Source of the DNA: an uncultured Opitutia bacterium
Lineage (GTDB): Bacteria > Verrucomicrobiota > Verrucomicrobiia > Opitutales > Opitutaceae
Assembly (NCBI GenBank): GCA_903877135.1
Contig: CAIRCN010000043.1
Span: 1-48,897, forward strand
DNA length: 48,897 nt
Direction of reading: 5' to 3'
Shown here: one piece after another, positions 21,557-45,006 of the stretch
Numbering within the stretch: the stretch's first letter is position 1
Layout: every line of letters starts with the position of its first letter
Translations under genes and position numbers: made by a program
The notes under the pieces: generated by a model
The model's input: only the letters and a program-made list of their open reading frames with translations
What the model was told of the DNA's origin: nothing
Databases searched by the model: none

Positions 21557-23008
21557 CTATGTGAAAGAGTCGGCGGCCGATTCCAGGCGGCCGTAGTGCA
21601 CCGCGCAGAAAAAGCAGACCCAGAAGACGGTGATCACCGAGCCGTTGCCGAAGGGAAATTCGATCCACGCGTAGAGGAGCAGCAGCCCGCAGCCGGCGAG
21701 GAGGTAGAGGGTCAGCGGGCTTTGGGTCAGCGCGCGGCGCCGGTAATAGAGGGGCACGAGCCCGCAGAGGGCGAGCAGCGCGGTGCCGACGTAACCGTGC
21801 TCGGCCACCGACTGGAGCCAGTCGGAATGGGCGTCGTGGTAGTAGGTCTGCAAACCTTGGGTCGGCGAGATATGCTGGCTGTTGAAGAGAAAAAATACGG
21901 TGGGATAGGAAGCCATTCCCCAGCCAAACCAGGGTTTTTCCTGCGCCATGTGCCAGGTGTCGCGGTAAAGCCTGGGGCGGTCCCCGATGGTGCCGGCGGC
22001 ACGCATGGTGGCGACCTCCGATTGCGTTTGGACGAAGCGGCGGTCGATCATGGGGCGGCCGATGTCGTAGGCAAACGCGCCGGCGACCGCGAGGGCGACC
22101 ACGCCGAGCGCCAGTGGCACGGCAATGGATTCGTTGTAGGCGTGGCGGCGCTTGATCAGGCGGAATATCCAATGGGAAAAGCCGATGCCGAGCAAGAGCA
22201 GCATCAACAGGCTGCAGGAGCGGGAGCCGCTCAGCGGGACCGAGACGGCCAAGAGGACGAGGGCCACGAGTCCCGTGGCCGCCGGGGAATGCCAGAAATC
22301 GCGGGTGTCGCGGCGACGGACGTAGTGGAAGATCAGCCCGAGGCAGGCGGCGGTCGTTAGCACGATGAACGCGCCCCAGTGGTTGTGGTAAAAGAAAGTG
22401 GAGAAGAAGTAACCCTGCGGAGTCTTTTGCAGGCCGAAATAGAGCCCGGTGGCGCCGACGAGTTTCTGCACGGTGCCGAAGATCGCGAGCGCCACCGCGT
22501 TGAGGGAAAGGACCATGAGCAGGCCGCGGAGCGCCCGGCGCTGGCGGACGACGAGGGCGAGGTTGAAGCAGGAGAGATAGACTCCGTCAAAAAACCACAA
22601 CTGCAGGTTGGAGAGCAGGGGGCGTGCGCTGCTGGGCCAGCGCGGATTAGACGCGGTCTGCACGAACAGACTTTCGCTGCCGTTCATCACTTCCCGGAAG
22701 CTGGGGTTGAACGCACTCGCGAGTACGAGCAGGTTGACGGCGGCCAGAGGCCACAGCCAACGGAATGGCAGCGGGGAGCCGTCTTTGCGCGGGTTGAGCA
22801 GGGCGGTGAGGGTGATGAGGCCGCCGAGGCTGGCCAGCCACGAGAGCAGGGTGCGCGCCCAGTCGGTGTTGCCCCCAAAAGCCCAGGAGCCGAAGATCAC
22901 GAGCGCTGCCACATGGACCAGCGTGATGATTTCGAGGAGGCCCAGCGAGGTCTGGTGCGAGGGGGGGCGGCCGCTGACGCCGCGTTCGTATTTGTGGTCT
23001 TCGCTCAT
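21557..23008 (-). CDS. O-antigen ligase/polymerase family membrane protein (Wzy/WaaL-like)
   Basis: From ATG 23008 the protein is 483 residues with about a dozen hydrophobic segments. The family signature is the periplasmic loop: VPLSGSRSCSLLMLL, then WFGWGMASYPTVFF and YYHDAHSDWLQSVAEHG, where the His and the GWG segment match the Wzy_C/O-antigen ligase family. Such proteins either polymerise lipid-linked repeats or transfer glycan to an acceptor in the periplasm; sequence alone does not separate the two. The start overlaps the stop of a truncated glycosyltransferase stub (ATGA at 23005-23008). The 5-prime end of this gene, MSEDHKYERGVS, is repeated at 24466. Confidence 0.87.
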   Translation of the reverse strand: MSEDHKYERGVSGRPPSHQTSLGLLEIITLVHVAALVIFGSWAFGGNTDWARTLLSWLASLGGLITLTALLNPRKDGSPLPFRWLWPLAAVNLLVLASAFNPSFREVMNGSESLFVQTASNPRWPSSARPLLSNLQLWFFDGVYLSCFNLALVVRQRRALRGLLMVLSLNAVALAIFGTVQKLVGATGLYFGLQKTPQGYFFSTFFYHNHWGAFIVLTTAACLGLIFHYVRRRDTRDFWHSPAATGLVALVLLAVSVPLSGSRSCSLLMLLLLGIGFSHWIFRLIKRRHAYNESIAVPLALGVVALAVAGAFAYDIGRPMIDRRFVQTQSEVATMRAAGTIGDRPRLYRDTWHMAQEKPWFGWGMASYPTVFFLFNSQHISPTQGLQTYYHDAHSDWLQSVAEHGYVGTALLALCGLVPLYYRRRALTQSPLTLYLLAGCGLLLLYAWIEFPFGNGSVITVFWVCFFCAVHYGRLESAADSFT

Positions 23009-23035
23009 GGGGCGAGGGGGGACACGGAGGACTGA
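22973..23035. repeat. Direct repeat, copy A (duplicated gene junction)
   Basis: About 63 bases match 24431-24490 almost base for base; the copies differ by one substitution and a short G-run length change. It contains the last codons of a GT4 reading frame (QSSVSPLAP stop) and the first codons of the wzy-like gene. The copies flank the GT-C gene at 23112-24419. Confidence 0.9.
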
Positions 23036-23115
23036 CGGGCGCATAAATCGGGCACGGAAATGCTCGGCCCGCCGTGACGCGGTTCGAGGCTGAGAACGAT
23101 TTGAGCGATTTTCAT
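23005..23115 (-). pseudogene. Collapsed GT4 glycosyltransferase: N-terminus joined to C-terminal tail
   Basis: A 36-codon ORF starts MKIAQIVLSLEPRHGGPS and matches the N-terminus of the intact GT4 gene at 25608 (MHCCQIVASLEKRHGGPS; 16 of the first 24 residues identical). After residue 24 it passes directly into QSSVSPLAP, which matches that gene's last residues, QSSVPPRP. The roughly 350 codons between are missing, as by an internal deletion. The ORF starts inside the stop of the GT-C gene (ATGA at 23112-23115) and its stop overlaps the wzy-like start (ATGA). It cannot encode an enzyme. Translation through it may still pass ribosomes to the wzy-like gene. Confidence 0.85.
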
Positions 23116-24419
23116 CCGGAACGAAAGAACCCGTAAGCTTGGGCGTGGACGGTGAGGAGAGTGAGTGCCAATTGGACAAGGGCCAGCGCCACCAGGGGCC
23201 AACGCCGGGTGAGCCTGAAGCCCGTCCGCGCCGCCGCGAGCAGCGCGAGCCAATAGATGAGAAAGAGCAGCAACGGCGGTTCGTAATAACGATGAAAAAC
23301 GAGACGGTTTGTCAGCATAGCGGCGGTCCACGGCACGACTACTGCCAGCCACAACAGGCACGGCTCCATCCCTGCTTCGAGCCACAGACGCCTGACGATC
23401 GCCAGAGCGAACGCCGCGCCGAGTGGGGCGAGCACGAGGAAAGGCACTGAAATATGACCAAAAACAGGCAGGTGTGCCGCCAATGTCCACCAGTAGCCAC
23501 CCCATCGCCCTGTGGTGTAGTAGAAATCCGGAACCGTCGAACTCACGAGCACGAGCACGAGACCCAGCGCACCTGCAAACAGGACCACGGGGGACGAAAA
23601 ATCGTCGCGCCATTGGCGGGTCGTCGTCGCGACCATGTAGAAGGACGCGCCCATGGAAAACAGCACGGTCAGAAGATAGATCAGCGCTGTGCCGTTGAAT
23701 CCCATCTTGGAGTAGGTTTCTTTGGCCCATGCTGGCGGCACAAGTCCGTGCCACGCCAGGAAGAGCGCTGCCAGGGGAAGGACCGGAATCAACCCGAGGG
23801 CGAGCCGCCCCCAGCGGTGCGAAATCTGGGCTTCGCGCCAGAGGCGCCACAAAAGCGGCCCGGCGAGCCAGACGTTGATCTGGCGCACGGCTACGCACGC
23901 GGAGGCGGAGACAGCGCCCAAGAGCGCGCCGCGATCCGAGGGGGTAAACAGAATTGCCGCAAGGGAAGCGGACATCATCATCAGGGCTGCGTTGTCCGTT
24001 ACGACGAAGCAGGATGATTTCACAAAGAAATTATCCAGAGCCAGAGGCAGCAGAGCCAGCATCAAGGATCCGCCGCCGCGCCGCTGTAGCAACCCCCACA
24101 ACAGGGCTAGCACCCCCAGGCTGACCAGCCAGTTGACCGCGCGCATCGCAAAGAAGCTAGGTCCGGTTGCCAGCGACACAGTGGAGAGAAAATACGGATA
24201 GCCCGGGGACGTAGCTGACAAACTGTCGGCAAGGAGGTTGAGCCTTGGCCAGTGGTCGCGTATTTGCCGGATGGCCGGAAGGTAAAACACCCGCTCATCC
24301 GTGCTCAGGTTGCCCACTGTCCGGCACCACAGGAGCGGCGCACTTAGAACTGCAAAACCGAGCAACCAAGGGACGAAGGCCAGCCAGCGTGGCCGGGCGG
24401 AACTCACTGCTTCGCTCAT
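23112..24419 (-). CDS. GT-C fold membrane glycosyltransferase, distantly ALG10/DIE2-like
   Basis: The 435-residue protein is very hydrophobic, with roughly ten membrane segments. After the first comes a short luminal/periplasmic loop with STDERVFYLPAIRQ (about 39-52), the acidic loop expected of GT-C enzymes using polyprenyl-phosphate sugars. CVAVRQINVWL near residue 175 recalls the FRQTNI motif of eukaryotic ALG10 glucosyltransferases, and HRYYEP near residue 380 is another candidate match. ALG10 adds the last glucose to the dolichol-linked glycan, so a role in capping or branching a lipid-linked sugar at the periplasmic face is plausible but inferred. Both ends have ATGA overlaps, with small stub ORFs on either side, and the gene is bracketed by a direct repeat. 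Confidence 0.72.
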   Translation of the reverse strand: MSEAVSSARPRWLAFVPWLLGFAVLSAPLLWCRTVGNLSTDERVFYLPAIRQIRDHWPRLNLLADSLSATSPGYPYFLSTVSLATGPSFFAMRAVNWLVSLGVLALLWGLLQRRGGGSLMLALLPLALDNFFVKSSCFVVTDNAALMMMSASLAAILFTPSDRGALLGAVSASACVAVRQINVWLAGPLLWRLWREAQISHRWGRLALGLIPVLPLAALFLAWHGLVPPAWAKETYSKMGFNGTALIYLLTVLFSMGASFYMVATTTRQWRDDFSSPVVLFAGALGLVLVLVSSTVPDFYYTTGRWGGYWWTLAAHLPVFGHISVPFLVLAPLGAAFALAIVRRLWLEAGMEPCLLWLAVVVPWTAAMLTNRLVFHRYYEPPLLLFLIYWLALLAAARTGFRLTRRWPLVALALVQLALTLLTVHAQAYGFFRSG

Positions 24420-24466
24420 CGGGGGCAGGCGCTGACACCGCGTTCGTATTTGTGGTCTTCGCTCAT
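24416..24466 (-). pseudogene. 16-codon stub repeating the start of the wzy-like gene
   Basis: The ORF MSEDHKYERGVSACPR repeats the first 12 residues of the wzy-like gene that starts at 23008 and then stops. Its ATG overlaps the stop of the GT4 gene (ATGA at 24463-24466), and its stop overlaps the ATG of the GT-C gene (ATGA at 24416-24419). It is a fragment left by duplication or insertion rather than a functional protein. It does leave the reading chain from GT4 to GT-C unbroken. Confidence 0.85.
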
Positions 24467-24490
24467 GGGCGGGGGGGCACGGAGGACTGA
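24431..24490. repeat. Direct repeat, copy B (duplicated gene junction)
   Basis: This is the partner of 22973-23035. It spans the 3-prime end of the intact GT4 gene and most of the 16-codon wzy stub. Together the two copies bracket about 1.4 kb holding the GT-C gene and most of the collapsed GT4 frame. Confidence 0.9.
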
Positions 24491-25608
24491 GAGGTGGATT
24501 TTAGCTGTTCGTAGAATTGAAGCAACTGCCGCGCGGACTGTGCCCAGGAGTATTCCCGCAGCACCCATTCGCGGGCGCGGGTGCCGCGCTCCCGCAGGCG
24601 CTCCGGCGTTTCGGCCAGCGCGGAGCGCAGCGCGGCCGGATAATCGGCCCAGGGCACGCACCAGCCGGCGGCGAGGGCATTGAGGGGGGTCCAGGGCGTC
24701 GTGTCCGTGACCACGACGGGCAGGCCGTGCGCCATAGCTTCGGCGATCACGAGGCCGAAATTTTCGTTGTGGGAGGGCAGCAGGAAGAGCGAGGCGACGG
24801 GATAGGGCGGCAGCCGATCGAGGCCGTCGAAGGCGCGCACGCGGCCGGCCCCGGAAGCGCGGAGGACATAGTCTTCCAGTTCCCGCGGGCGGTAGTCCTG
24901 CGCGATCCCCACTAGGAGTAGCAGCCAGTCGGGCGGCGCCTGTTCGAGCCAGAGGTCGATCAGTTCCAGCACCCGTTTTTTGGAGTGAAAACGCGAGTAG
25001 AAAAGGGCGGTGCGCCGCTCGCCAACTTCAGGGCAGGCCTCGCGCCAGTGGGCGGTCGCGGCGGCGATTTCTGCGTCGGTCGAAGCCGAGACGCCATTGG
25101 GCGCCACGCAGATCGGCTGGGTGAAGCCGAGGGCGCGAATGTCCTCCGCCTCGGCCGAACTGGTGGCGTGCCAGCCCGCAACAGCTTCAAAGGCCCCGGG
25201 ATGGATGGCCAGACGGGCGATTCTTTTCCGCAGACGATGAAAATTCCAAGCCCAAGGGCTCATCATGCCGCGGGGGGACAGCACAAGAGGAATCCCGGCG
25301 GCGACTGCTTTGGCGTGGGCATAGTGCAGGGTCCGCTGCCACATGGCGTGATGATGAACTATGTCACACTTGCAGACGCGTAGCTCGCGGACCAATTCCG
25401 CCGAGCAACGCAAGGCTTGCGGCCAGTTCCTGCGGAAAGTCTGCACCCGCAGACTGCCTTCTGTGTTCGTGCTTGTTTTGCCTGGATAGGTGGTGAAGAG
25501 ATCGACTTGTGTGCCAAAAGTCGCGAGGCCGCGTGAGAGCTCATAGACTGACTGACTTGGTCCTCCGTGCCGTTTCTCAAGACTGGCGACGATCTGGCAA
25601 CAATGCAT
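24463..25608 (-). CDS. Glycosyltransferase family 4
   Basis: From ATG 25608 the protein is 381 residues. It starts MHCCQIVASLEKRHGGPSQS, where GGPS is the acceptor-side loop common in this GT4 group, continues with HHHAMWQRTLHYAHAKA and LSPRGMM, and has the donor-side LFYSRFHSKKRVLELIDLW and the E-x7-E motif in LPSHNENFGLVIAEAMAHGLPVV (quoted as the region around residues 280-302). It transfers a sugar from a nucleotide donor to the growing lipid-linked chain. The longer open frame to 26097 overlaps the acetyltransferase and is rejected. The last codons are duplicated in the stub at 23005-23115. Confidence 0.92.
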   Translation of the reverse strand: MHCCQIVASLEKRHGGPSQSVYELSRGLATFGTQVDLFTTYPGKTSTNTEGSLRVQTFRRNWPQALRCSAELVRELRVCKCDIVHHHAMWQRTLHYAHAKAVAAGIPLVLSPRGMMSPWAWNFHRLRKRIARLAIHPGAFEAVAGWHATSSAEAEDIRALGFTQPICVAPNGVSASTDAEIAAATAHWREACPEVGERRTALFYSRFHSKKRVLELIDLWLEQAPPDWLLLLVGIAQDYRPRELEDYVLRASGAGRVRAFDGLDRLPPYPVASLFLLPSHNENFGLVIAEAMAHGLPVVVTDTTPWTPLNALAAGWCVPWADYPAALRSALAETPERLRERGTRAREWVLREYSWAQSARQLLQFYEQLKSTSQSSVPPRP

Positions 25609-25610
25609 GG

Positions 25611-26177
25611 TCAGATTGGCGTCGGGCGGTCCTTGAGGGGGCGACAGGGCTGGCCAGCGCAAATTTTCCGCGCGGGCTGATTGGAGACCGCCACAGCGCG
25701 AGCCCCAATGATGGTAAGTTCGCCGATGGTGACGCCGGGGCCGATGAAAGCCTCGGCGCAGATCCAAACGTTTTTGCCCACATGGATTGGGCTGGAGAGC
25801 AACGGCATGTCCCAACGCCGGTAGTCGTGGGTGCCAGCGCAGAGGTGGGCGTGCTGCGCGATGTTGGCCCCATATTCGAGGGTGATGCACCCGATGTTGT
25901 AGAGCCTGACATTGGGCCCGACCATGACCCGGGGGTGGATAGTGAGCCTCCAGGGAAAAAGGATCGCGACCGTGGGAAAAATTCGCACCTTGTCCGGTTC
26001 CGGGATCTCCGCGCCAAACCAGCGCAAGAGTTCGACCCGGAGGCGGTGCCAGGGGCGGGGGCTCCAGCGGAAAATGGTCGCTTGCACGATCGACCATATG
26101 ATCCGGGCGGCCACTTCGCGTTTAGGGTAAGGCGTGACACGACCTTGGCCGAGGTAAGGCTCAATGGGTGAGACCAT
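25611..26177 (-). CDS. WcaF-like hexapeptide acetyltransferase
   Basis: From ATG 26177 the product is 188 residues; a TTG at 26222 would add 15 residues (LLLLSWPRFFPPE) and cannot be excluded. The C-terminal half is a left-handed beta-helix of hexapeptide repeats: ILFPWRLTIHPRVMVG, LYNIGCITLEYGANIA, HVGKNVWICAEAFIGPGVTIG and ELTIIGARAVAVSNQPA. AGTHDYRRWDMPL contains the catalytic-type His seen in WcaF and NodL acetyltransferases. It probably O-acetylates a sugar of the glycan using acetyl-CoA. The stop is 2 bases before the GT4 start. About 150 bases lie between it and the GT-C gene upstream. Confidence 0.85.
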   Translation of the reverse strand: MVSPIEPYLGQGRVTPYPKREVAARIIWSIVQATIFRWSPRPWHRLRVELLRWFGAEIPEPDKVRIFPTVAILFPWRLTIHPRVMVGPNVRLYNIGCITLEYGANIAQHAHLCAGTHDYRRWDMPLLSSPIHVGKNVWICAEAFIGPGVTIGELTIIGARAVAVSNQPARKICAGQPCRPLKDRPTPI

Positions 26178-26325
26178 TTCAGGTGGAAAGAATCTTGGCC
26201 ATGAGAGGAGTAGCAATATCAAAACGGAACTTGCATTTCAGCGGGCACAGGCTGATGCCACGGCTTGGCTGAGTCCAGCAGCGGCGTTCAGACTGGCGGG
26301 AATAAACCCGTGTCGAGAGTGGTGT

Positions 26326-28790: not shown

Positions 28791-28798
28791 GTGGATGC

Positions 28799-29641: not shown

Positions 29642-29666
29642 GGCGCGCGGTGATTTCTAAATAACC

Positions 29667-31130
29667 TCAGCCAAAAACGTGGCGGATTAAAAAAGGCAGA
29701 CCGATGACTCCCACGCAGGCCTGGAACATCGAACTTGTCCACATCGACAGGGGCATCTCGGTTTGAAACGACCAGGCGATCAGGATGACGGTGAAGAGGC
29801 CGGGATAAGACAGGAGTGGGCTGTGCTTGGTGCGACCATGGACAAATTTATAAAAGCCCCCGAGGATGGTGCCTATGAGGATCACGCCAAAGAAGCCGTA
29901 GTTAACAAAAGCTTCGACGATAATGCCGAAGCCGATTGTAGTATTGGTGGTATCCTCCTCTCGCTGTAAGCCGTAATACACAGTCATTAGGTTGGTCGCA
30001 TCGTGAGCGCCAGGCTTGTCCGGCCAGAAAAAACGGGGGATGAATTGCCCGGGCAGAAAGGCATATGTAGCGCCATCGAGGAACGGCTTTTTGTCGGGTG
30101 AAATCGACTGGACCAGACAGAGCAGGTGAAAGAGCGAGGAGCGATCAAGCAACTTGGTGGAGGCTGAAGTTTCCTCATCGAGGCCGGGTGTGGTAGTCAG
30201 GCTGCACTCGATCCATTCAGAGAAGAAATCAGGCATCTCGCTCAACGTCGGAGTTTTATGAACTCCCATGTTGTCCCAGTAGCGATTTCGCATCTGCGAC
30301 TTGCCGTTATGCAAGAAACCGATCACGAACAACGTCAATCCCAGGGCTAAAACCGGCATGCGCCGGCTGCCCGACACGTAGCCGAGCAGGGCGATGAGCA
30401 GGGTGGCGATTCCCCCCACGAGAAGAAGGGTGGAAAACTGCAAAATGACCTGGACCAAAATGTTGAGGATGAATACCACCTTTTCGTAGCGGGTGATGGT
30501 GCCGAGGCCCCAGCGTTGGCACTGCACAAACACGGCGAGCAGTCCGATGCCGGAAAACACCGCGCGCAGCACGTTGCTGAGATCATAGGGGATCCAGTCG
30601 GTGAGGGAACTGACGAAGGTGTAGGCGGTTGTCAGCAGGAGGCCATATCCAATGTAACGACTGATATCCTTGATGATGACCTCGCGATGGAAAAGCGGGC
30701 CGCGCCCCGGCAAGACCTTGAGGCTGTAGTAGGTCAGTTCGGCGACCATCTGAAACCCGAGCACGGTCAGGGCGGCAAAATCGATGATGGAGTCCGAATA
30801 GCTGAAGAGCGACTTGTTGCCGCTGAGCAGGGGCAGGGCAAATGTGTTGGCGCCGGTGAGCATTAGCACCTCGAACATGGGGATTTGTGCGCCGCCGTTT
30901 TTTGCCCAGAGCAAACTGGGCAACATGGACATCACCAAGATGAGCATGCCCTCATACAGTTGGAGCGGATTGGCGACCCTGGCCGTCAAGCCATAATAGA
31001 CGCAGACCAGCGCGGCGCCGAGGATAGCGGCTTTGAACAGGGTCTTGCCCCCGAGTTCGAGTTGGGTCGCGCCGACTTCCAGTGTCTGCGGTGCGCCGCC
31101 ATCAATCTCCCTGCCTTGCGGGCCGCTCAT
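29667..31130 (-). CDS. Second Wzy-like polysaccharide polymerase (membrane)
   Basis: This 487-residue protein has about twelve membrane segments and a large loop with PGQFIPRFFWPDKPGAHD, then a TNTTIGFGIIVEAFVNYG stretch. That Pro-Arg-x-x-Trp-Pro-x-Lys-Pro pattern followed by a Gly-rich Glu-Ala-x-x-Asn-Tyr/Phe-Gly loop is characteristic of oligosaccharide repeat-unit polymerases. It differs from the O-antigen ligase family member at 21557-23008. The GC content by eye is lower than that of its neighbours. The ATG overlaps the stop of the upstream GT4 gene (ATGA). A likely role is polymerising repeat units on the periplasmic side of the inner membrane. Confidence 0.78.
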   Translation of the reverse strand: MSGPQGREIDGGAPQTLEVGATQLELGGKTLFKAAILGAALVCVYYGLTARVANPLQLYEGMLILVMSMLPSLLWAKNGGAQIPMFEVLMLTGANTFALPLLSGNKSLFSYSDSIIDFAALTVLGFQMVAELTYYSLKVLPGRGPLFHREVIIKDISRYIGYGLLLTTAYTFVSSLTDWIPYDLSNVLRAVFSGIGLLAVFVQCQRWGLGTITRYEKVVFILNILVQVILQFSTLLLVGGIATLLIALLGYVSGSRRMPVLALGLTLFVIGFLHNGKSQMRNRYWDNMGVHKTPTLSEMPDFFSEWIECSLTTTPGLDEETSASTKLLDRSSLFHLLCLVQSISPDKKPFLDGATYAFLPGQFIPRFFWPDKPGAHDATNLMTVYYGLQREEDTTNTTIGFGIIVEAFVNYGFFGVILIGTILGGFYKFVHGRTKHSPLLSYPGLFTVILIAWSFQTEMPLSMWTSSMFQACVGVIGLPFLIRHVFG

Positions 31131-32446
31131 GGGGCGGGGGCTTCCGGTGGGCGCCGGACTGCGCGGTCGAAGTGGGCGGCCAGCCGCTCGGTCAAAGTCT
31201 CGGCGGAAAACGGGCGGAAAGCCGCTTTATTGAAACCGAGATAGTGCTGGCGCTCCCTGCTGGCAAACCATCCACGATGCACCTTGTCCGCCAGGCGATC
31301 GATATCTTCGGGGCCGTGAAAGCTGAAGCGGACGCCGACTGCGGCGCGGCGTGCGAAGTCGAGGACAAGGCTCTGCTGATGGTAGATGAGCAGCATGGGT
31401 CGCTGGGCAAGGATGTAGGGGAAGATTTTCGAAGCGGCGTAGGTCGGATCGTTCGAGCCGATGGCAATCAGGGCCTGGGCCCGCCGCAGGTAATAAAGCG
31501 CATCGAAATACTGCACACGGTAACAATTCTCGCGGACGTAGTCGGTCACGCCCTCGGCCCGCGCGATCGGCATCGCCCAATACCGGCCGAGTGGCGGTGG
31601 GGCATAGTCGGTGCCGATGAAGTGAAAGCGCATGCGGTGCGCTTCCGCGGGATCAGATGCGAGATACTGCTTGAACGCCCGCAGGAGGACTTGCAAGGCA
31701 AACGTCATATCGGGGCCGCAGCGGCCGGTGTAAATGTGATGGAAGCACCCGTCATCGAAATCGACCAGGGGCTGGGCCGGGCGGTAATCACCCAACGCGA
31801 CGAAATCGGCCTGCGACGCCCCGAACGGCAGGAGTTCCACCCGTTTGGGGTCGAACCACGGATAGGCTTCGGCCAGCCCTCGTCCGTAGGCGTCGGAGAC
31901 ACCGATTATGCCGCTGGCGAGCCGCAGGGCGGTGGGCTCGATGCGCCGGGCCTGCCATTGGCTGAGCGCGAACCGGATGGGGCCGCCGGGCGGCGGGGTG
32001 CCCGTGCGCCGATAGTAGGGGTTGATCCACGGATCTTGATAATCGAGGACGTAGGGCACCCCGAACTGTCGCAGCCAGCGCGGCCCAAGTTGGAAGGCGC
32101 CAAACTGGGTCGTGCTCAGGAAAACCAGGTCGTATTTTTCGTCGCGCAGCAGTTGTTCGCCGGCCCGCGTGAGTGCGCGGCCGCAGCGCCACCAGATGTT
32201 GCCGATCCCCGCCCACCGCGTGTAACGCGGGGAGAGCCCCCGCACGCGCACGACGCGCACATCGGCCGGATAGGAAAGTTCGAGGAGAGGATCGACCACC
32301 GCGCCCTCGACCGAGTCGGGGTGCAGGGCGAGCACAGTGGGTTCCCAGCCGTGGGCGCGCAGGTAGGGCAGCGCCAGCCGCACGCGCTGCATGTCGGGTG
32401 CGTTGACCGGCGGGAAATGGGGCGAGACGATAAGGACGCGGCGCAC
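31127..32446 (-). CDS. Glycosyltransferase, GT4-type
   Basis: The 439-residue protein starts at a GTG and opens RRVLIVSPHFPPVNAPDMQR, the N-terminal strand and proline-rich loop of a large GT4-like group. Later come YVLDYQDPWINPYY, GIIGVSDAYGRGL and FHHIYTGRCGPD. The C-terminal donor region is less canonical: ALIAIGSNDPTYAASKIFPYILAQRP replaces the usual E-x7-E helix with a Ser-Lys-x-Phe-x-Tyr pattern found in some GT4 relatives. Its N-terminus is copied in the stub at 33556-33633. Its stop overlaps the start of the polymerase gene. Confidence 0.85.
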   Translation of the reverse strand: MRRVLIVSPHFPPVNAPDMQRVRLALPYLRAHGWEPTVLALHPDSVEGAVVDPLLELSYPADVRVVRVRGLSPRYTRWAGIGNIWWRCGRALTRAGEQLLRDEKYDLVFLSTTQFGAFQLGPRWLRQFGVPYVLDYQDPWINPYYRRTGTPPPGGPIRFALSQWQARRIEPTALRLASGIIGVSDAYGRGLAEAYPWFDPKRVELLPFGASQADFVALGDYRPAQPLVDFDDGCFHHIYTGRCGPDMTFALQVLLRAFKQYLASDPAEAHRMRFHFIGTDYAPPPLGRYWAMPIARAEGVTDYVRENCYRVQYFDALYYLRRAQALIAIGSNDPTYAASKIFPYILAQRPMLLIYHQQSLVLDFARRAAVGVRFSFHGPEDIDRLADKVHRGWFASRERQHYLGFNKAAFRPFSAETLTERLAAHFDRAVRRPPEAPAP

Positions 32447-32456
32447 GAGAAGATGG

Positions 32457-32543
32457 CTATTTAGGCGCGGGCCGCATGGGAGGGCAGGCCGTGGGTGTTG
32501 AGCGAGGTATGGCGAGGCGGAGGCTAAACAAGCGGTGCGTCAT
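32457..32543 (-). other. 28-codon micro-ORF bridging two genes
   Basis: The ORF begins MTHRLFSLRLAIPRS and ends in TAG 10 bases before the GTG of the next glycosyltransferase. Its ATG overlaps the stop of the methyltransferase gene (ATGA at 32540-32543). I recognise no family. It fills most of a 93-base gap, and may serve only to carry ribosomes across or be chance. Confidence 0.3.
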
Positions 32544-33559
32544 TTCTGGTTCCGGGTGGCCGCGAGCGCGAAGGCCCCGCCCTGCCTGAGGCGGTTGCCA
32601 TGTCGCAGCAAACGAAACAGGGTGAGGAGCCCGACAAGGCGCAGCGGGGACACGCGCAGGCTTTTCCAGCGGATGCGGTAAACCAGCGCGGCAAGCGTAC
32701 CGGGTTGTGCCGCATCGGCGAGCACGGCCAGATGGAGGTTCTGGCTGACTTTGCGCCAAGAAGGCGGCTCATGGAGGGGTATGTCCGGTTTAAGGCCCGA
32801 CTTGCGCAGCGCCAGGGCCAGGCTGGGCGGACTCCACCGGTTGATGTGATTCGGCGGCAGGTCCGGGCAGCCGGTCATATGCTCCTGCGCGGCCATGTCG
32901 TCGCCATCCGGCACGGTGATGAATAGCACACCGCCAGGTTTTAGCAGATCGCGGCAACTTCGCAGCAGAGGGTAGAATTCCGCCACATGCTCGAGCACTT
33001 GGAACAATGTGATGAGATCGAAGCTGCCCCGTAGCGCCTGCAGGGCTGGCGACTCGAGGCTCGCGTGGGCGGGAATGCCTTTCCTCGTGAGCACACCACG
33101 TGTGATTTCGCTGCTCTCCACAGCGTGGCACTCCCAGGCAGAGCCGAGACTTTCGAGAAACACGCCGCTGCCCGCGCCGATGTCCAAGGCTCGGCCACCC
33201 GCCAGCGACCTGATCCGCGGGTGCGCGAGTGCCACATCGTAGTCCCAGCGCCAAGGCGGATAGCCCATTTGTTCATGCAGTATTCGGTAGAAATTCTCGT
33301 TTCCGCCGATAAACGGGTCACCAAACGCGAACGTGCAAAGCCTGCACTGCATGATGCGGGTTGCGCCCTCCGGCCACATACCGCCAATGCACGACAGCAG
33401 GCGGTTGTGCCTGTCCCGGTCGCGCCAGGGCGGGCAGAAATGCAGCGCAGCGCGCTCAGCTGTATAGGTGAAAAGTGGGGCAGATTCGCATAGCGCACCG
33501 CACACGGGGCATACGGGCGCATGGCGAGTTGTGGCCTTGGTGGGGGTATGGGAGTTCAA
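32540..33559 (-). CDS. Class I SAM-dependent methyltransferase with zinc-ribbon start
   Basis: The 339-residue protein starts at TTG 33559. The first 75 residues hold cysteine pairs (CPVCGALC, then MQCRLCTFAFGDP), a zinc-ribbon-like start common in methyltransferases of sugar and glycan loci. A Methyltransf_11/23-type fold follows: ALDIGAGSGVFLESLG, CHAVESSE, DLITLFQVLEHV and LLKPGGVLFITVPDGD. The likely job is methylation of a sugar or polyprenyl-linked intermediate. Its start overlaps the stop of the stub ORF upstream (TTGA at 33556-33559), and the TTG start is supported by the next Met being much further in. It is not an FkbM protein. Confidence 0.87.
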   Translation of the reverse strand: MNSHTPTKATTRHAPVCPVCGALCESAPLFTYTAERAALHFCPPWRDRDRHNRLLSCIGGMWPEGATRIMQCRLCTFAFGDPFIGGNENFYRILHEQMGYPPWRWDYDVALAHPRIRSLAGGRALDIGAGSGVFLESLGSAWECHAVESSEITRGVLTRKGIPAHASLESPALQALRGSFDLITLFQVLEHVAEFYPLLRSCRDLLKPGGVLFITVPDGDDMAAQEHMTGCPDLPPNHINRWSPPSLALALRKSGLKPDIPLHEPPSWRKVSQNLHLAVLADAAQPGTLAALVYRIRWKSLRVSPLRLVGLLTLFRLLRHGNRLRQGGAFALAATRNQK

Positions 33560-33633
33560 TGTAGGGTCGGCCCGTGGGAGACGGGCGCATTGACGGGCGG
33601 GAAATGGGGCGAGACGCCGAGGACGCGTTTCAT
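33556..33633 (-). pseudogene. 25-codon stub of a GT4 glycosyltransferase N-terminus
   Basis: The ORF starts MKRVLGVSPHFPPVNAP. Of these 17 residues, 15 equal the start of the glycosyltransferase at 32446, and 41 of the first 51 bases are identical. It then runs VSHGPTLH and stops; the stop overlaps the TTG of the methyltransferase gene. It starts 10 bases after the interrupted LmbE gene. The match to a gene only one gene downstream points to a duplicated or replaced glycosyltransferase of which only the 5-prime end remains. Confidence 0.88.
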
Positions 33634-33643
33634 GGTGCGGTCT

Positions 33644-34471
33644 TTAAATCGCGGAACCGCCAGACGAGGACGGCAGCAGCCGGGCCGGCGCGACACGGAA
33701 AAAATACTCGGACTCGACATCGAGCAACCGAATCAGGCTGGTTGGGATCGCGGGCTCCGACTGCGGCGGCAGTGGCTTGCACTGCGAGGAGTAGCAGGCG
33801 AGAGCGTGGCGTTTGAGCTTGGGAAAATTTTCGGTGGGCGCGCGGTAGGCGCGGCCAGCACGCGCTAGTTGCTTTAGCAATGCCCGGGTGTTCCACCACA
33901 ACCAGACGGGATATTCCCAGAGGTCAGCCTGTGTCTTGGCGTGGCTGGCCGCTGCCATCACCAGTTCAAACGCGGCAGTGTGCTCGCTGCTGCCATCGCT
34001 GCGACATGGCAGAAAGATTTCCTCGGGCACCAGCTGCGCGATCAGAACAGTGAGACGAGCCACGAGTGTGACGCGGCGCGTTGCCGGGAGACAAGCGAGC
34101 GTGCCATCGGGCTCGTTGAGAACATGGATTGCCGTGGAATCGACTCCGAGGATCGCGAGGGCCTGTCACGCTTCTTGCGCGCGCAGCTCGGCGATTTCCA
34201 CCGGAGTCACGCGTGGGTGGTTGGGATGTGAGCAGGAGCCGTCAGTGAGGAATACGACGTGGACCGGCTGGCCGTCATTGCGCTTGTGGGCGATGAGTGC
34301 ACCGCAGCCAAGCGTCTCATCGTCCTGGTGCGGGGCAAACACGATAGTGATGCCGCGCCGCCCTACATAGGTCCGACTGGTAAGGCGCAGGATCAATTGG
34401 CCGCCGCGCGCTGCAATCAAACGAAAGAACTCTTTCGCCCCCAGCGGAATAATCTGCAACAGATTCAACAC
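33644..34471 (-). pseudogene. LmbE/PIG-L-type deacetylase interrupted by an in-frame TGA
   Basis: Read from GTG 34471 the frame spans 276 codons and is closed only by a TGA at codon 102 (34168-34166); both halves are in the same frame. The first half has the metal-binding APHQDDETLGCGALIAH (His48, Asp50, Asp51), the second half the matching LPCRSDGSSEHTAA with the second metal ligand His164. Across the stop the text reads RAQEA-stop-QALAILGVDS, which is how the family continues, so nothing but one codon is wrong. A CGA-to-TGA change would explain it. Such enzymes deacetylate N-acetyl sugars. It could be a recent pseudogene, a sequencing error or a recoded codon. Confidence 0.85.
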
Positions 34472-34501
34472 GAAGCAAAGACAGGCAGAGCGGAACCCAT
34501 A

Positions 34502-36441: not shown

Positions 36442-36482
36442 ATGATGGCGGTGCGCGATGCCGGATGACGGAGGGCGTTCAT
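36438..36482 (-). other. 14-codon micro-ORF with ATGA overlaps at both ends
   Basis: The ORF reads MNALRHPASRTAII. Its ATG lies inside the stop of the glycosyltransferase (ATGA at 36479-36482) and its stop inside the start of the FkbM gene (ATGA at 36438-36441). It exactly fills the gap between the two genes. No family can be assigned to so short a peptide; the exact fit at both ends is the only evidence that it is translated. Confidence 0.4.
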
Positions 36483-37510
36483 GAGTTGGCCAACGCCGAG
36501 TAAATCTCGAGGTAACGTTGCGTCGCCGCAGGGAGGCCGAAGCGCCGTTCGGCGTCGTCACGGCATGCCCTCCGGTCGAGCGTTGGGAGCCGCGCGACGG
36601 CGGCGACGCCTGCCGTGACGGAATCGATCAGGAAACCTGTCTCGCCTGGTTTCACGATCTCCAGCGTGGCGCCGCGCGGGCAGGTGATCACGGGGGTGCC
36701 GCACGCGAGCGCTTCGGCAAAGACGATGCCGAAAGGCTCGTCCCAGCGGATGGGAACGAGGAGTGCGGCGGCCGTGCCAAGTAGTGCGTTCTTGCGGACG
36801 TTGTCCACCTCGCCGACCCATTCGATGCCGTCATGCCCGAGTGCAGGTGCGATTTCCCGGTCGAAGTAGACGCGCTGGAGGCCGCTCGCAGCCCGGTTGC
36901 CGGCCAGCAACAGGTGCCGGCCAGCTGCTCGGGCGATGGCGATCGCGGTATCTGCGCCTTTGGTGTCGTCGAGCCGACTAAGAAAAACCAGTGGCGCATC
37001 GGCGGGCACGCGATGGACGAAGGTGAATTTATTCAGCTCGACGAAATTGGGCACGGCGGTCCAGTGGCCGCCGGCGGGCCGGCCCATGCGGCAGATAAAC
37101 TCGCTGCAGCCCGTAAAGCGGAGATGACGGCCGCCGAGGCGGGCGGCGATGGCGACTTGGCGGCCACCCGTGTGGCGCTGGTAGGACATGACCACCGGCT
37201 GCCGGGTGAGCAGCACGGGCAGCAGATAGGCGAGGCGGGAAAAACTGTGCACGACGTCTGGGCGGAAGGCACGCACGGCACGGCGCAGAGCGAGCGCGTT
37301 GCGCCAGGTCGCCTTGACCGAGTCGGTGCGGAGCGAGGGCCAGGCGAACCGCTGGTCGGCGGCGGCGGTCGAGTCCGGATGTGCGAGTAGCGCGACCTGG
37401 TGGCCGGTGGCACGGCATTGGCGCAGGAGCGCGTCAACAATCCGTTCGATGCCGCCATAGCCGATGGGCGGCACGGGAATCATTGGGTCGGCGGTGAGGA
37501 GAATGCGCAA
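36479..37510 (-). CDS. Glycosyltransferase family 4
   Basis: The 343-residue GT-B protein starts at TTG 37510, four bases after the FkbM stop. It opens RILLTADPMIPVPPIGYGGI, with the acceptor loop YGGIERIV typical of a GT4 group that acts on many glycans. The donor half shows LVFLSRLDDTKGADTAIAIA, WVGEVDNVRKNALLG and DEPFGIVFAEALACGTPVI, the canonical E-x7-E motif. Length is normal. It is likely cytoplasmic and uses a nucleotide sugar; specificity is unknown. Its stop overlaps the 14-codon micro-ORF. Confidence 0.93.
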   Translation of the reverse strand: MRILLTADPMIPVPPIGYGGIERIVDALLRQCRATGHQVALLAHPDSTAAADQRFAWPSLRTDSVKATWRNALALRRAVRAFRPDVVHSFSRLAYLLPVLLTRQPVVMSYQRHTGGRQVAIAARLGGRHLRFTGCSEFICRMGRPAGGHWTAVPNFVELNKFTFVHRVPADAPLVFLSRLDDTKGADTAIAIARAAGRHLLLAGNRAASGLQRVYFDREIAPALGHDGIEWVGEVDNVRKNALLGTAAALLVPIRWDEPFGIVFAEALACGTPVITCPRGATLEIVKPGETGFLIDSVTAGVAAVARLPTLDRRACRDDAERRFGLPAATQRYLEIYSALANS

Positions 37511-37514
37511 GAAT

Positions 37515-38228
37515 CTAGTTCCAGCTTTGGGAGGCTATTAGCGGTGAATCCGTTCGGACGTAGAAAACGTCCATTTGCCACAAGGCTCCATCCCGCGGCC
37601 GGTAATATTGGGGGAGAACATCGTAGAGTCGCAAACCACGAGTTTCCATGAAACGGTCGACCTCAGTAAAAATCGGCACGTCGCCAATTCTTAAAACGGA
37701 AGCTTCCAGCACGATCACCTCGAATTGCCGCAGGTGCCGCTCGCAGCCGGACAGGGCATCGAGTTCGTGACCCTGTAAATCCAGCTTCATCAGGTTGGGG
37801 CGAAAATTCAAACCGCCGTCCAACAGATCGTCCAGAGTGGTGCAGTCTATCGTGATGGTTTCTCCCGGCGGCCCACTGGAAACTATGTGACTGTTGGTAT
37901 CACCCAGATGAAAATGAACTTCGCCGCGTTGGCGGCCGATGGCTTTGGACACCACCACCGAATCCTTTGATGCAGCCGCCAAGAAATTCAGTGCCTGAGA
38001 TTGCGCCGGCAAGGGTTCTATCATAAGGCTCGGGCAATCTGGCCATATACTCCAGACGGAGCTTGTCCAATCGCCCTGATAAGCCCCGCCATCAACCGCG
38101 CCACTGGGACGCATACCTGCCCGCCGCAGATTCAACAGCCGGGTGTTCATGTCTTGCTGGGCGAAGAGCGATCGCTTCAAGCGCAGTAGAAACTCGCGGG
38201 GGAATAATTTCTTTATAGAATTAAACAT
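37515..38228 (-). CDS. FkbM family methyltransferase
   Basis: The 237-residue protein has SGAVDGGAYQGDWTSSVW (motif I, near 42-59), LMIEPLPAQ and PNLMKLDLQGHELDALSGCERH, where Gln replaces the usual Glu of the Lys-x-Asp-x-Glu-Gly segment. A later VIVLEASVLRIGD and FMETRGLRLYDVLPQYYRPRDG are typical of the family's C-terminus. The 160 bases upstream of its ATG are AT-richer than the flanks and hold no other gene, so an internal promoter could sit there. The product probably methylates a sugar hydroxyl. Its stop is 4 bases before the next glycosyltransferase. Confidence 0.87.
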   Translation of the reverse strand: MFNSIKKLFPREFLLRLKRSLFAQQDMNTRLLNLRRAGMRPSGAVDGGAYQGDWTSSVWSIWPDCPSLMIEPLPAQSQALNFLAAASKDSVVVSKAIGRQRGEVHFHLGDTNSHIVSSGPPGETITIDCTTLDDLLDGGLNFRPNLMKLDLQGHELDALSGCERHLRQFEVIVLEASVLRIGDVPIFTEVDRFMETRGLRLYDVLPQYYRPRDGALWQMDVFYVRTDSPLIASQSWN

Positions 38229-38388
38229 GGGATTTTCTATCAGGGACGCGGATTCTGATCGGTGGATGTCAGTCTAAAAATTCGGTTAATGGGTTAAGAT
38301 TTGTGTATTGGTGATCGGCTGTGAGGAGAATTCTATTGGGGTATCCGGGTTTACGCCGCTGGCGCGCGGCCGTGGTTACGGCGCATCA

Positions 38389-39513
38389 TCACGGAAGGAG
38401 GGCGGCGGCGAACCGGGCGGCCACCTCCTCCAGTTGTGGACTGCGCTGGGCAATCTCGGTGATGGCGGGGCGCAGGTGGGCGGCGGCGACGGGGTCGGAC
38501 AATTGCATGGCTAGACGGGCAAACTCGGCGGGCGTATCCGAGAACGGCACCAGCGCTTCGTCCCAGAAATAGCCGCGAGCGCCCGGGCGCGTCGTGACAA
38601 CAGGGAGATGCCAGCCCAGCGGCACGGCGAGCTTGGTGCTGCAGCCGCGCGGCACGCAGAAAATCGGGTTCAGGAAGGCGCACCAGGTGCGCGCCTCCGC
38701 CTGAAGTTCGATGTCTGTCAAGGAGCCGAGATAGTCGATGAACGGAAATTCCCGCGCCAGTTTTTCGCCTATAGCGGGCGGACTGCCTACCAGCCGCAGA
38801 CGTACGCTAACGGGGGTCGCGACGAAGGCACGGCAGAACTGAACAAGGCCATCGAGATTCGGCGCGTGGCCGAGCGTGCCTACCGTGCCGAGACGGCCGG
38901 CGGTGGGGATCCAGTCAAGCGGCGCGGATTCGACGAGGCGCGGCAGTACCTGCACGTTTTTCCCGCCTAGCCATTGTTCGAAGAGTCGGTCGCTTTCGGA
39001 AAGGCAAAAAATCGCGTCGAAGTGGCGGTGCATTGCCGCCTCGGCGAAAATCTGGCGGCCGATCAACAGCGCATCGCCGTCCGACACGGGCGGGCCCAAA
39101 CCGAAGTTGGCGCGGGTGTGGGCCGTGTGGAGAGAGTCGGTGCTGTCGATGCCGTGGGAGAGTAGGGCGAAGCGCACGCCGGATGTGCGGAGCGCGGCCA
39201 GCCGGGGGGCGATTTGCCCGGCATCGGTCTGGTTGAAAAAAATCCACCGGGCCCCAGAGGCCTGCACATGCCGGAGAACTTCCGCCTCGAATCCGGGCGC
39301 GACCAGATCGCTGTAGGGGCGGGGCCGGAATTTGCGCCGCAGACGCGCGAGGGGCCGCCGGTCGGTCGCGAAACTCACGGGATGGAGGGTGAAACCCGCG
39401 GCCCGGGCCACCTGCAGGTATTCGCGGGTGCAGTGCTGCACACCGCCACCCTCCGGCTGGAGCGCATAGGCGGCGGTGACGAAGACGGCGTGGCGGGGAT
39501 TAAGATCGGACAT
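38389..39513 (-). CDS. Glycosyltransferase, GT4-type
   Basis: The 374-residue protein starts MSDLNPRHAVFVTAAYALQP followed by EGGGVQHCTREYL, an acceptor-side loop of GT4-like enzymes. The second half contains VGTLGHAPNLDGLVQFCRAF, LRLVGSPP and a donor region (PRGCSTKLAVPLGWHLPVV) that resembles the Pro-x-x-x-Gly-x-x-x-Lys pattern of GT4 relatives lacking the classic E-x7-E. It overlaps the end of the upstream GT2 gene by 14 bases. The first 25 residues are matched at 15 positions by the stub at 41232-41381. Confidence 0.85.
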   Translation of the reverse strand: MSDLNPRHAVFVTAAYALQPEGGGVQHCTREYLQVARAAGFTLHPVSFATDRRPLARLRRKFRPRPYSDLVAPGFEAEVLRHVQASGARWIFFNQTDAGQIAPRLAALRTSGVRFALLSHGIDSTDSLHTAHTRANFGLGPPVSDGDALLIGRQIFAEAAMHRHFDAIFCLSESDRLFEQWLGGKNVQVLPRLVESAPLDWIPTAGRLGTVGTLGHAPNLDGLVQFCRAFVATPVSVRLRLVGSPPAIGEKLAREFPFIDYLGSLTDIELQAEARTWCAFLNPIFCVPRGCSTKLAVPLGWHLPVVTTRPGARGYFWDEALVPFSDTPAEFARLAMQLSDPVAAAHLRPAITEIAQRSPQLEEVAARFAAALLP

Positions 39514-40513
39514 GGCCGAAATCGCGGGTCATGAAGTCGGCAAAAGCGCCGCGCAGCAACCACGACCAGGCGGCAGTGTGACGCGCGCGGAAGCGTTGGA
39601 TGGAGCAGGTCGCACAGGGATGGCGCAGCGCGCCGGCGAGGAAACGCAATTTCGCAGGGACGCGGCCCTGCTGCCACAGATCGCTAGCCTCGGGCACAAA
39701 CCGGCCGGTCTGGAGCAGGATGCGGGTGAGCAGCGGATCGCGGTTGCGGGCGCTCTGCCAGAGCGCCCGGGCCAGCGCCGGGCGCGTCGGCGCGGGTGCG
39801 AGCGTGAAAACACTGCCGACGAGCAGCGTCTGATAACCACCCCAGATGGCAGTACCCTGCGTACGATGGGTGGAGAGGGTTTCCGCATAATTGACCAACG
39901 GCGCGTTCACGAGCAGGAACGGATGCGGCACGGCGCGTTCGCGAAAGTGCTCAGTGACCTCGATGGGGATATCGGCGGGTGTGCGCCATTTGGTCGCGTG
40001 CGCGGTCAGGAATACGAGCGAACTGTTGCACAGTCGAGCACCCCCGCATTTGTCGAGTGCCTGCCAGCCGAAAAGCTCTTCGCCGCCGGTGGCGGGCCAG
40101 ATCGTGCGTCCGGTGTCGCTCCACTCGTTCCCCGCCCGTTCGCGCCAGATCCGCTCATTGCCGCAGGCCAGCTCGACCGCTGGGTGGCGGGCGAGCGCGT
40201 CCAGCATGGCTGCGAGGAAACCAGGTTCCCACCAATTGTCGTCCTCCAGCACGGAGGCAAACGGCTCTGCGACAGCCCGGAAGGCGTAGTTGAAGTTGCC
40301 GGTCCCACCGCGGTGGACGGCGGGATGTTCTAGAGTCAGGCGCGGATCGCCGAGTTGTCCGAGCAAAGCGGCCACACGGGCGTCGGCCGGATCGTCGTTG
40401 AGCACCGTGGCGATCCAGTCACGGTGAGTCTGAGCGAGCAGACTGCGCAAGGCGCGCTCAAGTAGGTGCGGCCGGCGGTAGGTGATGACGTAGATGCGGA
40501 CAGCGGCGGACAC
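39500..40513 (-). CDS. Glycosyltransferase family 2
   Basis: Starting at GTG 40513, 11 bases after the FkbM stop, the product is 337 residues. RIYVITYRRPHLLERALRSL is a GT2 start and EDDNWWEPGFLAAMLDAL carries the acidic metal-binding site (Glu-Asp-Asp) in the place of the usual DXD. VLNDDPAD is the earlier nucleotide-binding acidic pair. The C-terminal third (ALARALWQSARNRDPLLTRIL) is family-variable. The longer open frame to 40633 lies over the FkbM gene. It shares 14 bases with the next gene, so the two are coupled. The sugar used is unknown. Confidence 0.87.
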   Translation of the reverse strand: MSAAVRIYVITYRRPHLLERALRSLLAQTHRDWIATVLNDDPADARVAALLGQLGDPRLTLEHPAVHRGGTGNFNYAFRAVAEPFASVLEDDNWWEPGFLAAMLDALARHPAVELACGNERIWRERAGNEWSDTGRTIWPATGGEELFGWQALDKCGGARLCNSSLVFLTAHATKWRTPADIPIEVTEHFRERAVPHPFLLVNAPLVNYAETLSTHRTQGTAIWGGYQTLLVGSVFTLAPAPTRPALARALWQSARNRDPLLTRILLQTGRFVPEASDLWQQGRVPAKLRFLAGALRHPCATCSIQRFRARHTAAWSWLLRGAFADFMTRDFGHVRS

Positions 40514-40524
40514 GGATCTGGTGG

Positions 40525-41235
40525 CTACGCGTGGGGCGCGGGAACGAAGAGTGCGTTGAAGTAAGCGAGGCGCGTGGGATCGCGCCACATCACCTGATCG
40601 TAGAGCGCGGCCAGGCGGTAGCCGAAAGGGCAAAGGAGCTTGGTCGCGTCAGCGAGCATAGTGTGTTCGTGGTCATCTTCGTCGAGGCTAGCCTCCAGCA
40701 GCACAGGACCGATAGCCCTCTGCGTGAGGAGAGCGTGCGCACCAGCGAGCACCGCGAGTTCGCAACCCTCCGTGTCGATTTTGAGCAGGTCGACGCGAGC
40801 GAGACCACACTCGGAGCAAAACTCGTCCACAGTGGTCACATCGATGGTTTCCGCAGGCGCGGAGGCGTCAACGGCCCGGTGGCGCAGGCTATGGGTCTGG
40901 GAATCGGACTGTAGTACGATGGCGATGCGTTCGCGACGGGCTCCGAGCGCAAGCGGGTGACAGGTGATGTTGGGGTAGGCGCTGGCTCGTGCATTGAGCG
41001 CGGCGAAGTTGTCGCGCACCGGCTCGAAGGAGTGGATTGCTGCATTGGGAAACCCCAGGGCAAAGCGTTCGCAGGTCTCGCCGCGATGGCCGCCGACGTC
41101 GAAAATTACGCGCGGCTGCGGGAGACCGGCTAGGGCGTGCCAGTCGTGCTCGAGATCAACTCCCGCCGGCAGGCCGGGCGTCTTGCGCAGAAACCAACCG
41201 TAGTGGGAAAGCAGGCGGCGAATTTTTTCTTTCAT
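40525..41235 (-). CDS. FkbM family methyltransferase
   Basis: The 236-residue protein has VIFDVGGHRGETCERFA (near 43-59), HSFEPVRDNFAAL and VDLLKIDTEGCELAVLAGAHALL, the full FkbM pattern. A late LAALYDQVMWRDPTRLAYFNALFV is also typical. The ATG at 41235 overlaps the stop of a 49-codon stub ORF (ATGA at 41232-41235). A GT2 gene follows 11 bases after its stop. Likely an O-methyltransferase for one sugar of the glycan. Confidence 0.88.
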   Translation of the reverse strand: MKEKIRRLLSHYGWFLRKTPGLPAGVDLEHDWHALAGLPQPRVIFDVGGHRGETCERFALGFPNAAIHSFEPVRDNFAALNARASAYPNITCHPLALGARRERIAIVLQSDSQTHSLRHRAVDASAPAETIDVTTVDEFCSECGLARVDLLKIDTEGCELAVLAGAHALLTQRAIGPVLLEASLDEDDHEHTMLADATKLLCPFGYRLAALYDQVMWRDPTRLAYFNALFVPAPHA

Positions 41236-41381
41236 AGACCGGATGGGACGGCTGTATAGGATTCGGTGAAAATATATGGACCGAACAGACAGATGGTCTT
41301 AAGGCTTACGCTACCGCCCAACGGCTGGAATGCATATACGGCGCTGACGAAAACGAACGTGCCCGGATCAAGGCCGGACAT
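41232..41381 (-). pseudogene. 49-codon stub with a glycosyltransferase N-terminus
   Basis: The ORF starts MSGLDPGTFVFVSAVYAF and continues QPLGGSV. Of these first 25 residues, 15 equal the start of the glycosyltransferase at 39513 (MSDLNPRHAVFVTAAYAL, QPEGGGV). After residue 25 the similarity ends; the rest (SLKTICLFGPYIF, TESYTAVPSGL) is unrecognised and AT-richer. The stop overlaps the start of the FkbM gene (ATGA). The tail may be from the 3-prime end of a lost gene or a frame-shifted remnant. Confidence 0.85.
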
Positions 41382-43521: not shown

Positions 43522-43529
43522 GTAGTAGC

Positions 43530-44846: not shown

Positions 44847-44997
44847 AGGCCGCCAAATTTCTAGAGATGAGGCGCGGTGCGATCCTCTGTAGTAGCCACC
44901 ATAAATCAATGGCTAGATAAATTTCAAGCCATGAGCCAAGCTGTAAATAGGAAAGTCCAATAATCAAGGACGTTTGTATTTCGAAAAAACTGGCCAC
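44821..44997 (-). CDS. Possible 58-residue membrane peptide after the ABC exporter ATPase
   Basis: An open frame from GTG 44997 runs to TGA 44823-44821, overlapping the start of the GT4 gene. It is in the same frame as the wzt gene, 9 bases past the wzt stop. The peptide has a hydrophobic centre (SLIIGLSYLQLGSWLEIYLA) and a charged amphipathic end (QRIAPRLISRNLAAYEDT). I recognise no family. It may be a real small protein, a remnant of a lost C-terminal extension or a chance frame in AT-rich DNA; the last is quite possible. Confidence 0.25.
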   Translation of the reverse strand: MASFFEIQTSLIIGLSYLQLGSWLEIYLAIDLWWLLQRIAPRLISRNLAAYEDTINHT

Positions 44998-45006
44998 ATA
45001 TAATAA

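Follow-up and report, generated by a model that had tools for sequence, protein, structure and literature searches.

Truncated gene starts as probable edges of inserted cassettes in a mosaic exopolysaccharide operon of an uncultured Opitutaceae bacterium

Four short remnants of gene starts and their surroundings

The DNA analyzed is a stretch of 48,897 nucleotides (the window) from an uncultured Opitutia bacterium of the family Opitutaceae. A preliminary description of its exopolysaccharide operon had pointed to four tiny ORFs, or stubs, that repeat the beginning of genes still present in the locus. All four were found at the positions given there, on the minus strand (S1 to S4 in Table 1). 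They are 16 to 49 codons long, and S2, S3 and S4 keep the first 46 to 75 bases of a parent gene, hereafter G. The S1 peptide (MKIAQIVLSLEPRHGGPSISVPDLCARQSSVSPLAP, followed by the stop) shares 16 of its first 25 residues, as counted by eye, with the complete GT4 glycosyltransferase (24463-25605), and the S2 peptide (MSEDHKYERGVSACPR, followed by the stop) shares 13 of 15 residues with the O-antigen ligase. The corresponding figures were 14 of 16 residues for S3 (with GT_31127) and 15 of 25 for S4 (with GT4_38389). The stubs resemble 5' ends of genes in the locus, as had been proposed, except that S1 also carries 31 bases from a GT4 3' end.

The claim that every stub stop overlaps the start of the next gene was borne out: the overlap is 4 nt in four of four cases, as ATGA for S1 (ligase ATG), S2 (M ATG) and S4 (FkbM ATG), and as TTGA for S3 (TTG of the methyltransferase MT). 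Two stubs, S1 and S2, also begin within the preceding stop, again as described. In three places, the arrangement follows a common pattern, G5'-X-G, i.e., the start of a resident gene, one or several other genes X, and the complete G. The complete G comes after X in all three, so that a homologous right-hand join is possible.

Table 1. Position of the stubs, of the direct repeat and of the neighboring genes in the window
Feature	Position	Strand	Remarks
O-antigen ligase family (Wzy_C)	21557-23008	-	complete G of event 1
73-bp direct repeat, copy 2	22963-23035	-	GT4 3' end and ligase 5' end
Stub S1	23005-23115	-	at most 80 nt of GT4' 5' end fused to the last 31 nt of GT4 24463-25605, to its stop
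M	23112-24419	-	X of event 1; 435 aa; homologs in 2 of 94 relatives (G052, 49%; G024, 40%)
Stub S2	24416-24466	-	ligase gene nt 1-46 with 3 mismatches; ends one base ahead of the M ATG
73-bp direct repeat, copy 1	24421-24490	-	70 bp; copy 2 lies 1,455 bp away
GT4 glycosyltransferase	24463-25605	-	complete; directly before S2
GT_31127 (Glyco_transf_4)	31127-32446	-	complete G of event 2
MT, methyltransferase (Methyltransf_23)	32540-33559	-	X of event 2; TTG start
Stub S3	33556-33633	-	about 52 nt of a GT_31127-type glycosyltransferase 5' end
PIG-L-like gene	33644-34465	-	upstream neighbor of S3; named by eye; start not set
GT4_38389	38389-39513	-	complete G of event 3
GT2 glycosyltransferase (GT2_39500)	39500-40594	-	second X gene of event 3; no start codon at 40594, true start uncertain and perhaps close to 40513
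FkbM methyltransferase (Methyltransf_21)	40525-41235	-	first X gene of event 3
Stub S4	41232-41381	-	about 75 nt of a GT4_38389-type gene 5' end and a 75-nt tail
GT2_41420	41420-42382	-	upstream neighbor of S4

Nine proteins were run against Pfam. Gene M gave no match at E 0.001, and GT4_38389 matched Glyco_trans_1_4 with 24.4 bits, under the curated cut-off of 27. The names ACT, PIG-L, radical SAM, Wzm/Wzt, WcaJ, Lpd and the other FkbM were given by eye. The region 15928-41235 contains five FkbM-type methyltransferase genes, four in the operon (28799, 35521, 37515 and 40525) and one nearby (15928); that at 40525 was checked with Pfam and the others were named by eye. Farther along, in 42586-46248, the genes Wzt, GT4_43530 and GT2_42586 have a GC3 of 0.46-0.56, compared with 0.61-0.86 in other operon genes, suggesting a separately acquired block.

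Three events compared with related loci

The GT4/ligase junction is present twice, as a direct repeat that aligns over 73 columns (27 bases before the ligase ATG and 46 ligase bases) with 3 mismatches and 3 one-base gaps. The two copies flank M and at most 80 bases of a second GT4 gene (GT4'). By this comparison S1 and S2 are the two edges of a single insertion, so that what had been counted as four occurrences amounts to three events.

In the same-genus genome G001, the order is ACT-GT4-ligase and the GT4/ligase overlap is ATGA, while G052 and G024 have the order ACT-M-GT4'-ligase and are the only ones among 49 related loci with M between ACT and GT4'. GT4 and ligase were directly adjacent in all 42 loci (49 examined) in which both were found in order, and other DNA lay between ACT and GT4 in 7 of 40. 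The N-terminus of S1 shares 18 of 22 residues with the GT4' of G052, a likeness that covers these 22 residues, compared with the 16 of 25 shared with the window's complete GT4. The DNA of the M/GT4' junction of G052 also resembles the M/S1 junction of the window, ATGA included. Because the junctions and S1 match both, the window combines a G001-type and a G052-type order. In the G052 locus (L043), the homologs of GT_31127, GT4' and ACT are each split over two frames, perhaps through indel errors in the assembly.

The first 10 bases of M are identical to the first 10 of the ligase gene, which suggests a short-homology join; the S2/M join has ATGAGCGAAG in common (p about 0.001 versus pairs of gene starts). 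The right-hand join of event 1 is situated 27 bases upstream of the ligase. The tail of S1 remains in the GT4 frame despite being 3 bases longer than its copy.

In event 2, the order in the window is PIG-L, S3, MT and the complete glycosyltransferase, S3 lying 10 bp after PIG-L. PIG-L followed by GT_31127 was found in 21 of the 49 related loci, directly adjacent (<200 bp) in 8 and with other DNA in between in 13. The gap was 13 bp in L140, the locus with the closest PIG-L (75%). In G021, a 46% MT homolog directly precedes the GT_31127 homolog, and this was the sole locus of the 49 holding both. Identity of the complete GT_31127 was 56-73% with ten homologs and 34-49% with the others, the homolog in the same-genus genome reaching 40%, and FkbM_28799 homologs were present in only 5 of the 49 loci; because of these identities and this rarity, the event 2 block may have been imported. 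The DNA of S3 matches the window's glycosyltransferase at 42 of 52 bases and the best relative also at 42, and since the two match equally, S3 gives no indication of which copy is the native one. The similarity at the S3/MT join was insignificant (p 0.68). The otherwise well-conserved PIG-L-like gene has an in-frame TGA at 34166-34168, which indicates a recent pseudogene or a sequence error.

As to event 3, S4, FkbM and GT2_39500 separate GT2_41420 from GT4_38389 in the window. In G058, the GT2_41420 homolog directly precedes the GT4_38389 homolog, and this was the only one of the 49 loci with both in order. A donor order was not seen, as none of the 49 loci had both GT2_39500 and GT4_38389. 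The 75-base tail of S4 (GC 0.47) had no convincing DNA match among the matches listed for 189 genomes (at most 4 matches scored per genome). With S4 and its upstream flank, only short matches were listed in the same 189 genomes; the best had an E value of 1e-4 over 23 bases and covered query positions 28-50, i.e., the region before the S4 start and its first bases. The similarity at the S4/FkbM join was insignificant (p 0.06).

Overall, the alternative order Y-G was found in relatives for all three events and X beside G for two of them, directly in event 2 and as M-GT4'-ligase in event 1. The stub positions coincide with the start positions of G in the Y-G relatives.

A tandem duplication of G followed by an in-frame internal deletion in the first copy would account for the GT4-type N-terminus and true GT4 C-terminus of S1. 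It appears very improbable, since the N-terminus of S1 is nearer to the G052-type GT4' than to the window's complete GT4, S2 is ligase 5' sequence right up to M, and the parent 3' end was undetected in the tails of S3 and S4. Comparison with both ends of the parents lent no support to the idea that these two tails are parent 3' ends or further decayed parent sequence; set against the entire parent, the S4 tail gave a borderline result (4.8% of shuffles). The presence of a copy of the G start at each X start was also considered; it held for S2/M alone.

The preliminary description had suggested, as one of three options, that the conserved 5' ends serve as recombination sites. Recombination at gene 5' ends is the best-supported origin of the stubs, in keeping with the gene order of the relatives. 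Ongoing exchange through these sites, with the repeated 5' ends allowing the gain and loss of X, is by contrast very doubtful: a deletion between the 73-bp repeats would give back the GT4-ligase order of G001, but the aligned bases identical to the complete gene amount to no more than 40 of 46 for S3 and 54 of 71 for S4, and no convincing repeats of this kind were found in the loci of the 49 relatives. No transposase or integrase was found among the nine proteins run against Pfam.

Search for further stubs

A survey elsewhere had been proposed in the preliminary description. We scanned the gaps between genes, with no condition on coupling, retaining hits of at least 27 bits and dropping those within 60 bases of the end of a stretch; the gene list was hand-made for the window and consisted of automatic calls elsewhere. 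In the 22 gaps of the window, the four known stubs were the only 5' remnants, and the operon yielded 5' ends alone. Two further hits in the window, classified as internal (14187-14576 and 14773-14934), lay over a gene absent from the hand-made list, which is 91% identical to L032. No same-locus 5' remnant was found in 66 gaps of 18 relatives' loci, nor in the 246 gaps scanned in 40 further stretches of this genome (592 kb). Remnants of the 5' end of proteins from other loci numbered 3 in the relatives and 4 in the genome's own stretches (27-40 bits). The latter also gave 5 hits to 3' remnants and 42 internal ones, of which 1 and 4, respectively, were same-locus. A 3' remnant elsewhere in this genome, L124:2301-2396, is 66% identical over 32 residues (51 bits) to a parent situated about 2.8 kb downstream.

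In a second same-locus scan, 4 of the relatives' loci yielded 5 hits of 28-30 bits, and another 4 hits of 28-60 bits came from 4 of the genome's own stretches. A start codon was absent at all of these matches, a weak criterion since the known S2 hit also lacked one. In a scan anchored on start codons, S3, S4 and S2 scored 80, 69 and 68, and all shuffled window ORFs scored below 55; S1 was missed because the parent starts were limited. The same scan gave 3 hits of at least 60 in the 49 related loci (868 kb) compared with 4 among shuffled ORFs, and 2 such hits compared with 0 in the own stretches, both of them covered by opposite-strand frames of higher GC3.

The strong hits in the genome's own stretches (L126, L125 and L121) were rejected as stubs. 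Both match and parent are covered there by opposite-strand frames with a higher GC3 (0.80-0.87), and we therefore took them as shadows of related genes. A further candidate, L078:1608-1721 (41 bits), has about 97 aligned bases in common with the region around the start of an ORF (2288-2887) in the same contig, and its match is devoid of a start codon; it is possibly another 5' remnant or a local duplication. The remaining hits were judged by eye.

No convincing coupled stub was therefore found in 592 kb of the 4.23-Mb genome or in the 49 loci, with a sensitivity that was incomplete (known stubs recovered: 4 of 4 in the gap scan, 3 of 4 in the start-anchored scan and 2 of 4 in the second same-locus scan) and with L078 as a candidate. 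Over the part of the genome and the loci covered, the proposed survey thus did not speak against the observation. Since gene content differs among the 49 relatives' loci without convincing stubs, gene exchange seems normally to leave none.

Stop/start overlaps and the favored interpretation

Three of the overlaps are older, ordinary junctions: S1/ligase and GT4/S2 are copies of one ATGA junction, that between GT4 and ligase in G001, and M/S1 is another, corresponding to M/GT4' (ATGA) in G052. The noninherited boundaries are those from stub to X (S2, S3 and S4), and a 4-nt overlap was present in all three, compared with 2 of 22 non-stub boundaries (hypergeometric probability about 0.004, some of the 22 starts being uncertain). 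As 42-52% of the called genes in three gene sets have NTGA at their start, joins made at random will overlap rather frequently. For random joins of real gene 5' ends with the DNA upstream of genes, the fraction that overlapped was 0.15, 0.14 and 0.12 at the three boundaries (12-15%; product 0.0024), and 0.32, 0.29 and 0.25 (25-32%; product 0.023) when the next gene was required to start with NTGA. The agreement in frame of S2, S3 and S4 is moderate evidence for selection on the join, odds of 0.02 being modest. The earlier proposal that coupling is selected for retains these frame statistics, with a joint chance for S2 to S4 of about 0.002 or 0.023, but loses strength with S1 and S2 reduced to a single event and three of the overlaps inherited.

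These observations bear on a simpler account, in which the stubs are plain recombination scars devoid of function and the overlaps are inherited or coincidental. We regard it as rather unlikely: the three inherited overlaps and the frequency of overlaps at random junctions agree with it, while the three of three noninherited boundaries, and the S1 tail that stays in the GT4 frame with 3 additional bases, argue against it.

Shine-Dalgarno (SD) 4-mers were not more common upstream of genes than in shuffled upstream regions, whether in this genome (0.10 versus 0.09; 389 starts), in the relatives (0.05 versus 0.06; 279 starts) or in the window (0 versus 0.10; 31 starts); outside the window all starts were uncertain, and most were automatic calls. 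Some Verrucomicrobia are listed as SD-scarce in a published survey (PMC10783764). Because no SD signal was detected and because of this survey, a need for restart at overlaps is plausible, and reinitiation from stub to gene would be a reasonable role for the stubs. The suggestion that the stubs are translated regulatory leader ORFs is a different one and seems extremely unlikely: every stub has a start codon and reads straight into the next gene, but the peptides look like the beginnings of different genes, are encoded in the middle of the operon and are explained as gene 5' ends.

The best reading of the stubs is that they represent recombination scars rather than decayed whole genes, and we think it probable that they mark cassette edges in an exopolysaccharide operon of mosaic structure, where they may act as translational adaptors. 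According to this reading, short-homology or illegitimate recombination would link incoming DNA to the resident G a few dozen bases into the coding region. The join on the other side would fall inside G, immediately ahead of it or farther downstream, leaving a complete G after X. Junctions at which the truncated G happens to end on the NTGA start of X would survive preferentially. In a lineage that apparently uses few SD sites, ribosomes terminating at the stub could then reinitiate on X, and the stub would act as a short adaptor for translation.

More tentatively, acquired genes in such an SD-poor lineage might be well expressed only if they land some dozens of bases into a resident gene whose frame stops in overlap with the start of the newcomer. 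Gene capture would then borrow the start of a neighbor as an adaptor and leave a G5'-X-G scar, which is an equally tentative part of the same proposal. The adaptor idea is the novel element and is put forward as a candidate. If true, it would provide a concrete rule for the expression of foreign genes in operons of bacteria that hardly use SD sites. The scars would then also show the orientation of earlier cassette insertions in polysaccharide loci, whose history is difficult to retrace by other means. Even as bare scars, they let three insertions in one operon be read with unusual ease.

Among the matches listed from the open-license literature, titles and opening lines of abstracts do not describe repeated coupled 5' stubs. 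Mosaic capsule loci (PMC5850285) similarly exchange polysaccharide-synthesis genes within a locus; repeated G5'-X-G scars with preserved overlaps are not described for them in titles and opening lines of abstracts. Termination-reinitiation at overlapping gene pairs has been measured in Haloferax and E. coli (Huber 2019, PMC6728339). Those pairs resemble the present ones by the 4-nt stop/start overlaps of neighbors in the same operon and differ from them in that the upstream partner is here a remnant of 16-49 codons rather than a functional gene, and the coupling is putative. The nearest model is offered by the T6SS arrays of V. cholerae, for which Kirchberger 2017 (PMC5361080) proposes a join by homology on one side and by illegitimate recombination on the other, pieces of displaced genes remaining as a record of successive replacements. 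The likeness lies in the joining of modules and in the displaced gene ends left behind. The T6SS arrays have a conserved upstream anchor and leave older immunity genes and 3' ends downstream, whereas in the operon described here a 5' end is left upstream, the complete G stands downstream and the stop/start overlap is kept.
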